Part shown: positions 2,969 to 13,222 of the stretch, piece by piece | How the letters are laid out: each line of letters starts with the position of its first letter | How positions within the stretch are numbered: the stretch's first letter is position 1 | Assembly (NCBI GenBank): GCA_913046825.1 | Contig: CAJWTF010000105.1 | Coordinates: 1-13,484, forward strand | Reading direction: 5' to 3' | From: an uncultured Rickettsiales bacterium | GTDB taxonomy: Bacteria; Pseudomonadota; Alphaproteobacteria; UBA8366 | DNA: 13,484 nucleotides | Made by a program: the position numbers and the translations under genes | The notes under the pieces: model-generated | What the model saw: only the letters and a program-made list of their open reading frames with translations | The model's database searches: none | What the model was told of the DNA's origin: nothing

Positions 2969-3814
2969 CTACTTTTCGACGGGCAGGTCTTCCCGTCCAC
3001 CCCATTCCGTCCAAGAGCCGTCATATATGGCGACATCGTCGCGACCGATGAGATAGAGCCCAAGCGCTAAAATGCAGGCGGTGATTCCGCTGCCGCAGCT
3101 GGTCGTGATCGGTTCCGCCAAGTCGACGTTTCCGGCTTCGAAAGCTTGTGTAAGTGAAACGCCGTCCACCATTGCCCCGTCTTGGATGATTTTGGCATAG
3201 GGGACATTCATCGAACCGGGAATATGGCCTGACCTTAGGCCAGGACGGGTCTCTGGTTCCGTGCCGTTGTAGCGGCCAGCGCCACGAGCATCGACGACTT
3301 GTTCGCCGCCGCTGGCGATATTGGCATTTACTTGATCCGCTGAACGCAGCAAATCGGTGCGTAATGTGGCCGAAAAATCAACCGTGGCCGGAGCAGGGGT
3401 ATCAGTGGTTACGGGGCGACCTTCAGCCCGCCATTTTGGCAGGCCTCCGTCGAGCACCGCAACATCGTCGTGACCGAAGGCGCGGAACATCCACCATCCG
3501 CGCGGTGCGGAATAGATACCGTGTTGATCGTAGACCACGACCTTGCAGTCGTTTGAAATACCGAGCGCGCCGACGCCTTTCGCAAATATTTCCACATTCG
3601 GCATCATATGTGGCAGTGTGGCATTCGGGTCGGCAATTGTGTCAATGTCGAAAAACGGTGCCCCCGGAATGTGCGCGTCGCGGTAATTCGCCCGCATGTC
3701 TTCTTTAACTCCAACGCGTGGCAGGGAGGCGTCGACTACGCAGACCTTGGGATTGTCGATATTCTCAGCGAGCCAGTCGCTGGAGACCAGCGCTTCCGGT
3801 TTAACGTATGACAT
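2969..3814 (-). CDS. sseA: 3-mercaptopyruvate sulfurtransferase (tandem rhodanese)
   Basis: A 281-residue two-domain rhodanese that moves sulfane sulfur from 3-mercaptopyruvate to a thiol or cyanide acceptor. The N-terminal inactive rhodanese domain includes [16 protein letters not shown] and the inter-domain [16 protein letters not shown] hallmark. The C-terminal domain contains [13 protein letters not shown] and the active-site loop CGSGITAC with catalytic C240; this CGSG(V/I)TAC form distinguishes mercaptopyruvate sulfurtransferases from thiosulfate sulfurtransferases. The protein ends with the usual YDGSWTEWG block. The ATG at 3814 has a strong AGGAAAGGAA ribosome site just upstream and follows the AlaX stop by 18 nt. 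Its place behind cysteine synthase and an editing protein suggests joint expression in cysteine metabolism or detoxification. Confidence 0.93.
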
Positions 3815-3832
3815 TGAGTTCCTTTCCTGAAC

Positions 3833-4549
3833 TTAGTCGGCGAAGGCGATGCTAACCCGTCGGTTTCGCTTGCCCTTGCTTTCGATTTTAGTAATACGAA
3901 TATGGCCAATTTCGCCTGTCCGCGAAACGTGCGTTCCGCCACAGGGCTGCAGGTCAATCTCGCCAATTTTTAGCAATCGGATCCGCCCGGTTCCACGTGG
4001 TGGAGCCACCGACATAGTCGGAATGATCTCGGGTTGAGCATCGAGTTCCTCGTCAGTGATATAATCAATATGTATCGGATGATCAGCGTCAATCAGTGCA
4101 TTTACCAAGGCGGCGATCTCCTCCTTATCGAGTTTTTCATCACTCATATCAAAATCCATTCGGCTTTTCTCGGCGCCGATTTGGTTTCCAGTCACACCCG
4201 CGGGTACGATGGAACATACCAGATGCAGAGCGGTGTGCATTTGCATGTGAAGATAGCGTCTATCCCAGTCGACGACCGCTTTGACTTGCGTGCCGGGTAA
4301 AGGCGCCGTTTGTCCCTCGGCGGGGACATGGACGACATTCTCAACACCTTTGCCTTTCACTGTGGTCGCAATGGTGATTTCACTGCCGTCCGCTAGGCGC
4401 AAGATGCCGGTATCGCCTGGTTGGCCGCCACCGGTTGGATAAAAATTCGTGCGGTCCAGAACGATGCCGCCCAGCTCATTAATTGAGACGACAGTAGCCT
4501 CGCATTCCTTGAGGTACGAATCGCTCCGAAAAACTTCTTCCGTTAACAT
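3833..4549 (-). CDS. alaX: Alanyl-tRNA editing protein, AlaX family
   Basis: A 238-residue free-standing editing domain related to the C-terminal editing region of alanyl-tRNA synthetase. It is expected to hydrolyse mischarged tRNA, classically Ser- or Gly-tRNA(Ala), in the cytoplasm. The RTNFYPTGGGQPGDTG signature lies at residues 33-48. The four zinc ligands are intact: H105 and H109 in HTALH, and C203 and H207 in QPCGGTH. The start ATG at 4549 overlaps the end of the cysteine synthase gene by 7 nt, and GGAG lies upstream inside that gene, so translation is probably coupled. The length fits a medium (AlaX-M-like) form with an N-terminal beta-barrel and no synthetase core. The link to cysteine synthesis is only contextual; substrate specificity is not visible. 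Confidence 0.92.
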   Translation of the reverse strand: MLTEEVFRSDSYLKECEATVVSINELGGIVLDRTNFYPTGGGQPGDTGILRLADGSEITIATTVKGKGVENVVHVPAEGQTAPLPGTQVKAVVDWDRRYLHMQMHTALHLVCSIVPAGVTGNQIGAEKSRMDFDMSDEKLDKEEIAALVNALIDADHPIHIDYITDEELDAQPEIIPTMSVAPPRGTGRIRLLKIGEIDLQPCGGTHVSRTGEIGHIRITKIESKGKRNRRVSIAFAD

Positions 4550-5556
4550 TTTACATACTCCAGCCAGTCTGGAACCGGCAGATTTTTCTCGCGCAGGAAC
4601 ACGGGATTGAACAGTTTCGACTGATACTTATTGCCGAAATCGCAAAGGATGGTCACGATGGTATGACCGGGGCCCATTTCCTTGGCCATCCGGATAGCGC
4701 CGGCGACATTTACACCGCTTGATGCGCCAAGGCACAGGCCTTCGTGTTTCAATATATCGAAGACGACCGGCAGAGCCTCTTCGTCCGGTATCTGATAGGC
4801 ATCGTCGAACGGCGCGCCGTCAATGTTGCCGGTTATCCGACCCTGACCGATTCCTTCCGAAATCGAGCTGCCGTCAGATTTTAGTTCACCGGTCTTGATG
4901 TAACTGTACATCGCGGCACCCATCGGGTCGGCGGCTGCTGTCTTGACGTCTTTGTTTTGATCCTTGAGGTACATACTAATTCCGGCAAGCGTTCCGCCCG
5001 TGCCGATGGCACAGGTAAATCCGTCTAATTTGCCGTCGATCTGCTCCCAAATCTCGGGACCGGTCGACCGATAGTGGCCCAAACGGTTTGAGGTGTTGTC
5101 CCACTGATTGGCATAGAGCACTCCATTCGGCTCACTGGCGGCCATTTCCATCGCCTTACGTTCCGCTTGATGGACGTAATTGTTCGGGTCCTTGAAGGGG
5201 ACAGCAGGGACTTCAATCAGTTCGGCGCCGCATAGGCGCAGCATATCTTTTTTCTCTTGGCTCTGTGTTTCGGGGATAATTATGACTGTGCTGTATCCGC
5301 GGGCATTACCAACCAGCGAAAGCCCGATGCCGGTATTGCCCGCCGTCCCTTCGACAATGACGCCGCCCGGTTTTAAGTCGCCACGTTCCTCGGCGTCCAA
5401 GATGATGTACTTCGCCGCCCGGTCCTTGACCGAACCGCCAGGGTTTAAGAATTCGGCTTTGCCGAGAATCGTGCAGCCAGTTTCCTCCGAAGCTTTTCTA
5501 AGCTTAATTAAAGGGGTGTTGCCGATTGCATCGACGAAATCGTTACGATAATTCAT
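4543..5556 (-). CDS. cysK: Cysteine synthase (O-acetylserine sulfhydrylase family)
   Basis: A 337-residue fold-type-II PLP enzyme, expected to make cysteine from O-acetylserine and sulfide. GNTPLIKL opens the fold at residues 12-19, and the PLP lysine is K44 in NPGGSVKDRAA. The substrate loop TAGNTG lies at 71-76, the phosphate-binding GTGGT at 185-189, and GASSGVN, which holds the pyridine-nitrogen serine, near 277-283. It is somewhat longer than the roughly 310-residue CysK of enterobacteria, with a longer C-terminus, as in a group of alphaproteobacterial homologues. The start ATG at 5556 has GGAG 10 nt upstream. It is the first gene of the leftward operon that continues into alaX and sseA. 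Cystathionine beta-synthase activity cannot be fully ruled out from sequence because the folds are shared. Confidence 0.9.
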   Translation of the reverse strand: MNYRNDFVDAIGNTPLIKLRKASEETGCTILGKAEFLNPGGSVKDRAAKYIILDAEERGDLKPGGVIVEGTAGNTGIGLSLVGNARGYSTVIIIPETQSQEKKDMLRLCGAELIEVPAVPFKDPNNYVHQAERKAMEMAASEPNGVLYANQWDNTSNRLGHYRSTGPEIWEQIDGKLDGFTCAIGTGGTLAGISMYLKDQNKDVKTAAADPMGAAMYSYIKTGELKSDGSSISEGIGQGRITGNIDGAPFDDAYQIPDEEALPVVFDILKHEGLCLGASSGVNVAGAIRMAKEMGPGHTIVTILCDFGNKYQSKLFNPVFLREKNLPVPDWLEYVKC

Positions 5557-10781: not shown

Positions 10782-11216
10782 ATGAAAACAGTGTCACCTG
10801 CCATAGCCGTTGAGGACAAATATGCTTCCCCGGATTTTCAGAAATCCCTGCAGTCTACTGCTGAAAATGTAGATAATCATGTCGGCCAACGCCTCCGATT
10901 ACGCCGCCAGGAGTTGGGCCAGAGTCAAACAGCCGTCGCGGATCGGTTGGAAGTTACATTTCAGCAGGTTCAAAAGTACGAGCGCGAAATGAACAGAATT
11001 TCCGTGAGCCGGCTTCACTACCTTTGTGGCATCTTGAATGTCCCCGTCGAGTATTTCTTCGAAGGTGTAGAAGCGGATGTTGTAGATCCCGATGGGCCAA
11101 ATTTGAATGATCCAGAACTCACGGAGTTGGTCGATTATTACATGTTGATTCCGCGACAAGTTACCCGTGCTAGGCTAAGCGCAATGTTGCGCGCGATGGG
11201 ACGTTGGCTCGTCTAA
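10782..11216 (+). CDS. XRE/Cro-type HTH transcriptional regulator
   Basis: A 144-residue DNA-binding protein. The helix-turn-helix domain spans about residues 34-93: VGQRLRLRRQELGQSQTAVA forms the first helices, and VTFQQVQKYEREMNRIS contains the recognition helix. LCGILNVPVEYFFEG closes the domain in the way typical of alphaproteobacterial XRE proteins. The C-terminal part (PELTELVDYYMLIP, then a basic helix) may be for dimerisation. About 30 N-terminal residues precede the domain. No strong ribosome site is seen before the ATG. It converges on the selenoprotein operon, with 60 nt between the stops, and has palindromes upstream that could be its own operator. Target genes are unknown. Confidence 0.88.
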   Translation: MKTVSPAIAVEDKYASPDFQKSLQSTAENVDNHVGQRLRLRRQELGQSQTAVADRLEVTFQQVQKYEREMNRISVSRLHYLCGILNVPVEYFFEGVEADVVDPDGPNLNDPELTELVDYYMLIPRQVTRARLSAMLRAMGRWLV

Positions 11217-11239: not shown

Positions 11240-11280
11240 GTAAGTCTTCATAGCACCCGTTCGGTGCAAAGGGGACTTAC
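11240..11280. terminator. Two-tier inverted repeat between convergent gene ends
   Basis: Outer arms GTAAGTC (11240-11246) and GACTTAC (11274-11280) enclose inner arms GCACC (11253-11257) and GGTGC (11263-11267), with a symmetric 6-nt internal loop that can partly pair. The right outer arm contains the selenoprotein stop codon. The element lies between two convergent genes, which suits a bidirectional terminator or mRNA 3'-end stabiliser. Neither side has a clear T-run, so a classic intrinsic terminator is not proven. Confidence 0.45.
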
Positions 11281-11801
11281 GTCTGGATGGCATCCAAGAT
11301 TTCCGGCATTGCTACCCGGGCGACGAGAGCGAGTTCTTCCGAAGTGCGATTTTGAATTGGATGAGGGACCCAAATCACCGCTGGCGCAAAGCCTAGTGCT
11401 TTTGATTGGGCAACCGCGCCGGGCTTGAATTCTTCCGATGCCACTCCGCATCCGGGAACACCTCGTTTATCCAAGGTCGCCAAGTCATGCAAACTGCACG
11501 ACGTACACGATCCTCAATCGGCCAAGCCGACGACGACGACGTTACATTGTTCGATAATATCTTGAACAATTGGCTCTGGTGCCGGTCTTGTGTAAGTTGG
11601 CTTGCGAAAGCGGACGACATTGTGTCCCTCCGCGACCAAGTTGCGCTCTACTGAATCTAGAAATTCATCGCTGCGTTCCTTGGATATCGACAACAAGCCA
11701 ATGACGGCATCTGACAATTTTTTGCTAGGGGAGAGCCGTTCGCGCAACACGTCGGTTAGCTCCGCGGTCGGGTCTCGCATGACAAACGGCTGATTTCTCA
11801 T
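11277..11801 (-). CDS. UGSC-family selenoprotein (UGA decoded as selenocysteine)
   Basis: Read through the UGA at 11516-11514, this frame gives a 174-residue protein. Residues 1-95 end in NVVVVGLAD, followed by the redox motif U96-G-S-C99 and TSCSLHD, then a C-terminal half with GFAPAVIWVPHP, which is the UGSC family pattern. In this family the UGA codes selenocysteine, placed so that U96 and C99 can form a selenenylsulfide; C102 is a further thiol nearby. A stem-loop with bacterial SECIS geometry lies just downstream of the UGA. The ATG overlaps the stop of the thioredoxin-like gene by 4 nt (ATGA), so translation is coupled. A conventional caller would split it into a 95-residue ORF and an unrelated fragment beginning at 11492. 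The biochemical function of the family is not established. The selenocysteine machinery (selA, selB, selC, selD) must lie outside this window. Confidence 0.9.
11484..11502 (-). promoter_or_regulatory. Candidate bacterial SECIS element
   Basis: In the mRNA, the arm GUCGUGCA (11502-11495) pairs with UGCAUGAC (11491-11484) in an 8-bp stem with one G-U pair, closing the 3-nt loop GUU. The stem begins 11 nt after the UGA and the loop 19 nt after it. Known bacterial SECIS elements have an apical loop about 16-37 nt downstream with a G among its first two bases; both rules are met. It should be bound by SelB to direct selenocysteine insertion. Confidence 0.75.
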
Positions 11802-13222
11802 AATTTCACCTCTTCCGATACGATCTTAATTTCGTCTTTGTTTCGCTGGGCAGGCCAGCCACCTATGATGCCGGATTGGCCGGCACCTTTGCCGCCGGCG
11901 CGCACGACGAGAAGCCCGCCTTCGTTAAATTTATCGACTGACTCGTCCACGCGTGAAGGGTCGATTCCTTCCAGGACACCTTGGGCCCCTTGGATTAGGT
12001 CGCGACCGGGCCGTTTGAGTGCTTCCCATAGAGCAGCCTCAATCTCTGGGCGACCCCAGCCGTTTTGACGGTAAATCTCATAATGATCCGGGCAAAGCAC
12101 CAGCACGGCATGGGACCATTGGCAGCTTTTGGGATGACAAACCGCCAGCAAACTCATCGCCAAGGACCGCGAAACTTCCTCCGGTGTTCGGGAGTGCCAG
12201 GCAACACAGCCTTGTACTCCGTCTCCATGGAAAAGCGTAACTGTTGACGCACCGGCGTGCGCTCCACGTGCTACGTTGAGTGGGACCCAGTCCGGATCGT
12301 CTTCATCTTCTGCGAAACAAAAAGTGTATTTTCCTGGATTCCCAAGGATCGAGCGGTCGACTTCTTGCGGAATGCCGCCGCCCACATTGCGTACCAAGAG
12401 CTGCAATGCACGGCCGATGGAAGCGTTCGCCCGATTGCCTTGGCCGAGCGCGTTGCCCTTAGAGTTCATGCCGATGCGTTTCGTCACCGGGCCATTGACG
12501 ATGACGACAGGGCCGGCAAAACCCAGTGTAGCCAGCAGGCCATGCATGGAGAACTCCGGTCGTAGCGCCGCTTCAATGACGGCCAGGACCACTGGCATAT
12601 ATTCCGGACGACAGCCCGCCATCACGGCGCTAATGGCGACTTTCTCGATTGTGCATATGGATAAGTTTGGTGGGATTAATCCGATAATTTCGTCCGATTT
12701 TCTATCCGTGCCGGCCAACATTCGCGCGATGCGTAAATCCGTTGGTGGAACAACGGGAAGGCCGTCCGACCAGCCGCGTTCATAGGCGACCTCCATCGGG
12801 TCTTCCATCTCGTCAACTTCTATCGCGCGCGATGCCAGATGAGTTCCGTCGAATTGTAATGCGAGGCGTTCCGGCATACCCGGCTCAACCGAACGCGAGC
12901 CGCACCCGGGCTTGAAGGCTGGCAAATCCGGGCCCAGACCTGACTGGCCGGTAACGCGCTGCCACGCTTCTCGGTCCCATCCCGCGATACGTTCAATTTC
13001 GATTCCGTCTTCGAGACGAATAACAGTCGGTACAATTTCAATTTTGCGGCGCCACGATTCCTTGAGCGTCCGATCATCGCGTGCTCCTCCGGTCGCTTCC
13101 GGGAAGGAGGGATCATCTTGCGAGAAAATAACCGTCGGTGCGGCCTGCTTTAGTAAAGAGAGGACTGGAGCAACACTTTGGCAGGTTTCGCAGTCGCGTT
13201 TTACAATAACGAGGATTTCCAT
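11798..13222 (-). CDS. Thioredoxin-fold protein fused to a large uncharacterised domain, UGSC partner
   Basis: A 474-residue protein. The N-terminal 90 or so residues look like a thioredoxin fold: MEILVIVKRD strand, redox motif C11-E-T-C14, and the cis-proline region IVPTVIRLEDG with P65. A linker containing GCGSR follows. A large domain from about 135 to 455 then shows DPMEVAYERGWSDGLPVVPP, MAGCRPEYMPVVLAVIEA (201-218), a Gly-rich stretch near 256-284 and LLVVRAGGKGAGQSG near the end. Eight Cys outside the CxxC motif (107, 190, 204, 302, 339, 362, 367, 377) may include functional thiols. I cannot name the large domain's reaction. The stop overlaps the selenoprotein start by 4 nt. A redox partnership, with the CxxC reducing the U-G-S-C centre, is a reasonable inference. 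The ATG at 13222 has only a weak GAGA ribosome site. Confidence 0.8.
   Translation of the reverse strand: MEILVIVKRDCETCQSVAPVLSLLKQAAPTVIFSQDDPSFPEATGGARDDRTLKESWRRKIEIVPTVIRLEDGIEIERIAGWDREAWQRVTGQSGLGPDLPAFKPGCGSRSVEPGMPERLALQFDGTHLASRAIEVDEMEDPMEVAYERGWSDGLPVVPPTDLRIARMLAGTDRKSDEIIGLIPPNLSICTIEKVAISAVMAGCRPEYMPVVLAVIEAALRPEFSMHGLLATLGFAGPVVIVNGPVTKRIGMNSKGNALGQGNRANASIGRALQLLVRNVGGGIPQEVDRSILGNPGKYTFCFAEDEDDPDWVPLNVARGAHAGASTVTLFHGDGVQGCVAWHSRTPEEVSRSLAMSLLAVCHPKSCQWSHAVLVLCPDHYEIYRQNGWGRPEIEAALWEALKRPGRDLIQGAQGVLEGIDPSRVDESVDKFNEGGLLVVRAGGKGAGQSGIIGGWPAQRNKDEIKIVSEEVKL

Follow-up and report, generated by a model that had tools for sequence, protein, structure and literature searches.

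The minus strand of this DNA carries two small open reading frames (ORFs) that lie in the same frame and are separated by a single UGA codon. Is this UGA read as selenocysteine (Sec) within one gene, and what kind of protein would the gene encode? We examined these questions in the window, that is, the whole stretch of 13,484 nucleotides analysed here, and in related genomes.

One reading frame across a UGA codon

The features of the gene are as follows.

11277..11801, minus strand: UGSC-family selenoprotein gene, 174 amino acids, predicted Sec at residue 96
11514..11516, minus strand: in-frame UGA, codon 96 (Sec); of 80 genome loci, 74 share the TGA and six have TGC
11809..11816, minus strand: putative Shine-Dalgarno-like sequence GGAAGAGG, read ahead of the UGSC ATG

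The frame runs on the minus strand from the ATG at 11801 to the TAA at 11279-11277, and its sole interruption is the TGA at 11516-11514, codon 96, which closes the N-terminal ORF (11801-11514). The joined protein matched the Pfam family PF24696 over residues 9-173 with an E value of 6.3e-35 and a score of 121.3 bits against a cut-off of 25. With NCBIfam NF041046 it scored 125.2 bits, which is barely over the cut-off of 125. The family motif, U/C-G-S-C, appears in the window protein as the TGA of codon 96 followed by GSC. The original prediction held that the two ORFs are one gene across a single UGA. This was borne out, since the frame is the same and the Pfam match spans the UGA. The product has 174 residues and the junction reads ...VVVGLAD-U-GSCTSCSLHD..., exactly as claimed. 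The downstream half had also been said to possess no good start of its own; its earliest start is the TTG at 11492, codon 104, which lies within the motif. Frame and family can thus be taken as established at the level of sequence.

Genome contigs were then scanned with two patterns of the N-terminal half, and the best 80 of 153 relatives were kept. Codon 96 was TGA in 74 of these and TGC in six, so that the Cys homologues with which an alignment at residue 96 had been proposed do exist. In a 40-row alignment D95, U/C96, G97, S98, C99, S101, C102, H105 and D106 were invariant. C102 was no longer invariant once more distant rows were added, and it is often W in paralogues. Between the window and its relatives L001-L003, the differences at codon positions 1, 2 and 3 numbered 45, 21 and 134 after the UGA and 66, 29 and 155 before it. 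Because the changes fall mostly at third positions, the segment after the UGA behaves as a coding frame. Neither a loss of U/C at residue 96 nor a lack of conservation beyond the UGA, which had been named as observations that would speak against the prediction, was seen: only TGA and TGC occurred, and the codons that follow are coding-like.

Of 139 homologues found, 120 were listed; 113 of these 120 stop at ...LAD, directly before the UGA, and the other seven are full length, all with CGSC. A search of viral contigs for UGSC gave 61 pattern matches, none of which was a relative.

The hairpin after the UGA and the Sec machinery of relatives

11472..11516, minus strand: predicted SECIS-like hairpin, beginning at the UGA, upper stem 11502-11484, AGU(U)U loop; evaluated by folding z-scores

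The 48 nt from 11519 (11472-11519) gave a folding energy of -19.4 kcal/mol and a z-score of -3.77 against 200 shuffles, and the shorter cut 11477-11519 gave a z-score of only -1.69. When the 75 TGA genes (74 loci and the window) were reshuffled synonymously, the 48 nt starting at the UGA showed a mean z of -1.77, the lowest among the offsets scanned; the mean z of the same stretch in the six Cys genes was -0.38. At codon 103, a loop position, 71 of the 75 TGA genes have AGT and the remaining four TGT. All six Cys genes use TCN at this codon and none uses AGT, and elsewhere AGT makes up 29 of 651 Ser codons.

All 75 orthologues have C-G as the inner stem pair. Among 35 paralogues, 20 carry G-C at this place, 12 carry C-G and three leave it unpaired; that is, a compensating switch has occurred, and this switch mostly accompanies the change of C102 to W. 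The outermost counted pair is formed in just 47 of the 75 orthologues. These 35 genes belong to a set of 36 UGSC genes at paralogue loci (those of G001, G005, G014, G018, G020 and G029, with the G022 and G028 loci left out), from which L118 was omitted in the pair count as orthologue-like. The mean z of the 36 genes was -1.32, compared with -0.34 elsewhere in the genes (Wilcoxon p 6e-4). In eight of the 36 the z-score was above 0, the hairpin being no better than reshuffled sequence. Among the five most distant copies (below 50 bits), z was above 0 in three and was -0.88 and -2.81 in the others. Rfam gave no match in the whole window or in 11380-11600. The folding and codon data together point to the presence of a bacterial SECIS-like hairpin after the UGA.

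The Sec machinery was examined in the genomes of 40 of the 80 loci, 34 of Sec type and six of Cys type. For tRNA-Sec we chose a threshold of 60 bits instead of the Rfam cut-off of 47, because matches above 47 bits occur in 37 of the 40 genomes and also in 5 of 14 controls. Among the 34 Sec-type genomes, tRNA-Sec of at least 60 bits was found in 30, SelB over its cut-off in 29, and either or both in 31. SelA and SelD were searched in 12 genomes. Of the three Sec-type exceptions, G024 has SelA, SelD and a piece of SelB under the cut-off, G037 has SelA, and G004 has only SelD. In the Cys-type genomes, SelB and tRNA-Sec were both present in two of six and both absent from four, in which the best tRNA-Sec match was 49.9-52.8 bits, above the Rfam value and below 60; one of these four, G031, has SelD. 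In the closest relative, L001, which is 76% identical, the full set of four Sec components is present.

Two other readings of the UGA must be weighed against these data. It might be decoded as something other than Sec, by readthrough or as Trp; we found nothing that favours this idea, the sense codons at position 96 across the 80 loci are Cys in every case (6/6), and the relatives carry Sec machinery, so that it appears very improbable. Still harder to uphold is a true stop that leaves a 95-residue N-terminal protein and a decaying remainder, for although the short form dominates the databases, the codons beyond the UGA evolve like coding sequence, every locus that lacks TGA has Cys instead, and the residues around and beyond the codon are invariant in 40 rows.

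These comparisons support the view that the window gene is a genuine selenoprotein gene and an ordinary member of a known family. The UGSC selenoprotein pattern proposed at the outset is supported clearly by PF24696, barely by NF041046, and further by the Cys homologues and the hairpin; we also count the Sec machinery of the closest relatives towards it. The description of the selenoprotein as hidden holds for gene callers and fails for the literature and the libraries, the family being already in Pfam, in NCBIfam and in print.

The literature on UGSC selenoproteins goes back at least to 2008. In the available part of PMC2398784, UGSC is a major family of the GOS data (255 Sec and 21 Cys forms) and one of the major selenoproteins of aquatic metagenomes; it is there called 'likely' thioredoxin-like, and a fusion to a domain named Unknown_1 is reported. 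The accessible portions of other papers list the UGSC family (PMC9312934), give a UGSC row with the values 26 and 33, which we take as organisms and genes (PMC5029168), assign to UGSC 8.2% of the marine selenoprotein genes found (PMC9402790), and, in a 2026 review, place it among selenoproteins with largely uncharacterised functions (PMC13188914). The word UGSC is absent from PMC12013277. Among the papers listed in the literature searches for UGSC, no title or abstract concerned UGSC function, the partner gene described below, a thioredoxin reductase link or an expansion of copies.

A standing partner gene with a thioredoxin-fold domain

The original prediction did not include the gene that lies directly upstream, and this gene is the more informative part of the locus.

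11798..13222, minus strand: partner gene, 474 amino acids; its TGA stop overlaps the UGSC ATG (ATGA)
12944..13222, minus strand: thioredoxin-fold domain of the partner, residues 1-93, with C11-x-x-C14
11801..12805, minus strand: main domain of the partner, about residues 140-474; without a match in Pfam or NCBIfam, seven paralogues having been scanned as well

In 75 of the 80 loci the partner ends upstream of UGSC, at a distance of no more than 200 nt. In the other five, the partner overlaps UGSC (L040), lies 1.3 kb upstream (L064), or is cut by the contig end (three loci). When ORFs of the 80 loci and the window were clustered, the largest cluster was the partner (65 loci) and the next was the N-terminal half of UGSC (40 loci). 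A candidate third conserved gene, an opposite-strand cluster of 37 loci, was rejected; it consists mostly of ORFs that overlap the pair (30 of 47).

In 23 genomes, searches with profiles gave 102 UGSC matches and 128 partner matches. For the pairing we used all 102 UGSC rows and 124 of the 128 partner rows, four short pieces being dropped, and assigned each UGSC match to its nearest partner. By this rule, 99 of the 102 UGSC matches have a partner on the same strand no more than 1.2 kb away, with the partner first in 58 pairs and UGSC first in 41, one of which is the second pair of L019 (in G015), mislabelled by the rule. Of the 124 partner rows, 27 are the nearest partner of no UGSC match; by a hand count, 22 of these 27 lack a UGSC match on their own strand at up to 1.2 kb. 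Among the 26 UGSC-first pairs in the fetched loci, seven form a single frame broken by TGA alone and one is free of stops, that is, natural fusions occur, that of L106 among them. Thus the partner is a standing companion of UGSC by gene order, and this companionship, the fusions and the thioredoxin domain are read directly from the genomes.

Residues 1-93 of the partner match the thioredoxin fold and contain the CxxC. The partner profile, compared with solved structures, gave 45 matches at an E value of at most 1, and 44 of them were thioredoxins; the single partner sequence gave nothing under E 0.07. Neither Pfam (E ≤0.1) nor NCBIfam (E ≤1) gave a match to the 474-residue protein. In 93 of the 124 partner rows the match starts past profile position 95; that is, these partners are without the thioredoxin domain. 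Cys302 of the main domain is invariant in a 40-row alignment. Fumarate hydratase and cyclic amide hydrolases were considered as fold relatives of the main domain and set aside, the matches being weak (E above 1e-3, TM about 0.1-0.2).

Searches of plasmid records for UGSC and the partner matched 8 and 24 records; 12 of these were examined, and 11 of the 12 were annotated. In 3 of these 11 regions trxB is found no more than 2 kb from the pair, and in the other eight it is not annotated. The gene order is trxB-trxA-partner-UGSC in the Arthrobacter plasmid and partner-UGSC-trxB in the Roseovarius THAF8 plasmid; the third is the Variovorax SRS16 plasmid. All three plasmid pairs are Cys forms. Among 120 loci, a TrxB-like gene lies within 3 kb of the partner in three, namely L057, a Cys form (TGC), and L101 and L103, both Sec forms (TGA), whose TrxB-like genes are 31-35% identical to the query. 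Nine further loci have TrxB-like genes more than 5 kb from the partner, and the remaining 108 of the 120 gave no TrxB-like match. Since the three plasmid pairs and L057 are Cys forms, the trxB link is barely shown for Sec forms.

Other plasmid copies were also observed. CGSC forms adjoin or are fused to partner genes in plasmids of haloarchaea, Arthrobacter, Roseovarius and Variovorax (L134, L135, L137-L142). In the Paracoccus ferrooxidans plasmid pFER4 (L136, 6420-8077 and 11392-13167), UGSC is split at the UGA into two hypothetical CDS, with the partner behind it and selB about 4 kb away.

The copy number is high in two betaproteobacterial genomes: G014 has 17 UGSC matches, of which 14 reach 50 bits, and in G018 13 of 16 matches do so. 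Even the low-scoring copies L116 and L123 match the Pfam UGSC family (E 2e-21 and 9e-21). The fetched copies of G018 lie on contigs of 22-878 kb. Both genomes are metagenome bins, that of G014 being fragmented, and some of the copies may come from contamination. Nearly all UGSC matches at L085-L096 (G014) and L105-L118 (G018) show one in-frame TGA, and most adjoin a partner paralogue. A second, diverged UGSC-partner pair is present at L019:4412-8069, and at L027/L028:10001-11051 tandem UGSC genes follow one partner.

As for the wider neighbourhood, clusters of 19, 13, 12 and 11 loci are real neighbours, mainly of Reyranella and Rhodospirillales-type loci. At L044, L051, L066, L075 and similar loci, an alpha/beta hydrolase and other genes common to 11-19 loci of these types lie downstream; L044 belongs to Reyranella aquatilis KCTC 52223, a cultured environmental strain. 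In a Pfam search of 80 near ORFs, out of 224 kept by the filter, alpha/beta hydrolases led with 18 of 80. At the paralogue loci, Pfam was run on 110 of 258 near ORFs and on all 110 far ORFs; TctC was found near in 10 of 110 and far in 7 of 110, which is no clear enrichment. In NCBIfam, SDR oxidoreductases led among the same 110 near ORFs. Several plasmid copies are flanked by CoA-transferases, TTT/TRAP binding proteins and isocitrate lyase/PEP mutase-type genes, and some UGSC-partner copies lie among organic-acid/CoA genes. The neighbours are not clearly catabolic above background. In the window itself, an HTH_3-type regulator (PF01381) at 10782-11216, plus strand, is convergent with the UGSC gene, and at 2969-5556, minus strand, a rhodanese, a tRNA_SAD/alanyl-tRNA editing-type protein and a PALP enzyme stand in series.

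A proposed two-part selenoenzyme and known systems

What, then, might the pair do? A structural model of UGSC, built with Cys for Sec from eight sequences, had a pLDDT of 86.7 and showed a strict alternation of strand and helix with five strands. Its Foldseek neighbours were flavodoxin, TIR, PurE and receiver-like proteins, and the domain is therefore predicted to be Rossmann-like. Thioredoxin folds were absent among the Foldseek matches listed, although one may occur among those not listed. By sequence, UGSC gave nothing credible against solved structures (all E above 0.9).

We consider, with a probability of about 0.55, that the UGA is decoded as Sec by means of the hairpin just downstream and that UGSC serves as the selenol subunit which, together with the 474-residue partner, forms a two-part enzyme that is fed by thioredoxin and has a small molecule as its substrate. 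In this proposal U96 would lie at the N-terminal end of the helix after the third strand of the Rossmann-like domain, with C99, C102, H105, D106 and probably H147 as neighbours. Its selenolate would attack a small substrate held together with the main domain of the partner. A bond between U96 and C99 (or C102) would then form, and the thioredoxin domain that the partner itself carries would reduce it. Of the two cysteines, C99 more probably resolves the bond, because C102 is so often replaced in paralogues. The thioredoxin domain would draw electrons from NADPH through thioredoxin reductase, and paralogues that lack this domain would use a separate thioredoxin and thioredoxin reductase. The complex, the electron flow, the substrate and the reductase direction are what we infer.

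The glycine, sarcosine and betaine reductases and the D-proline reductase have a selenol subunit with UxxC, a second subunit and a supply from thioredoxin. UGSC might be a remote relative of GrdB/PrdB, and the pair a divergent Sec-dependent enzyme of reductive cleavage of the glycine/D-proline reductase type. In an hhalign comparison over 78 columns, the Sec of UGSC fell on that of GRDB-like proteins from the same genomes (P 0.012; P 0.034 using another UGSC alignment), and one fusion gave a weak match to PF09338 (E 0.05). Against this, the hhalign probability was just 3.6% and 1.5% with only six GRDB-like rows, the window protein had no PF07355 match at E ≤0.1, and none of 24 PF07355 matches in eight genomes coincided with a UGSC match. 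We consider this relationship unlikely. GRDB-like selenoproteins (V-U-P-N-C) were observed at L126:1393-2604 and L131:1396-2619, in genomes that also carry UGSC, and these genes are likewise split at the UGA under plain ORF reading.

A different possibility is that the UGSC protein itself is thioredoxin-like, as its UxxC motif and the available part of PMC2398784 suggest. The strand and helix alternation of the model, its Rossmann-like neighbours and the constant company of the partner argue the other way, and we find this reading distinctly unlikely.

If we return to the two-part enzyme, what was an 'unknown redox protein' becomes, through its standing partner, the thioredoxin domain within that partner and the natural fusions, an enzyme pair that can be put to the test. 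What deserves to be followed is the partnership, the thioredoxin domain and the copy number. Should the high copy numbers hold, certain betaproteobacteria would exceed by far the UGSC counts given in the available parts of the printed sources. It is conceivable, and we say so only tentatively, that UGSC and its partner represent a large class of two-part, thioredoxin-dependent selenoenzymes of small-molecule catabolism, distinct from glycine/proline reductase, of which a single genome may hold as many as 16-17 diverged copies. Such a class would have been overlooked for two reasons: gene callers end the Sec subunit at the UGA, and no family model exists for the partner.

Compared with the UGSC family of PF24696 and NF041046, the window protein is alike in its near full-length match, its motif and the occurrence of Sec and Cys forms, and it differs in nothing essential; its partner, in contrast, has no model in either library. 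The GOS fusion of UGSC with Unknown_1, as far as the available part of PMC2398784 describes it, resembles the present pair in that UGSC is joined to an unnamed conserved domain, whereas in the window the partner is a separate gene with an added thioredoxin domain; the partner main domain may be Unknown_1. With regard to the Grd/Prd reductases (GrdB/PrdB, PF07355), as they are generally understood, the proposed UGSC pair would work alike in logic, but UGSC has no significant sequence match to them and the window partner has no PF09338 match at E ≤0.1.
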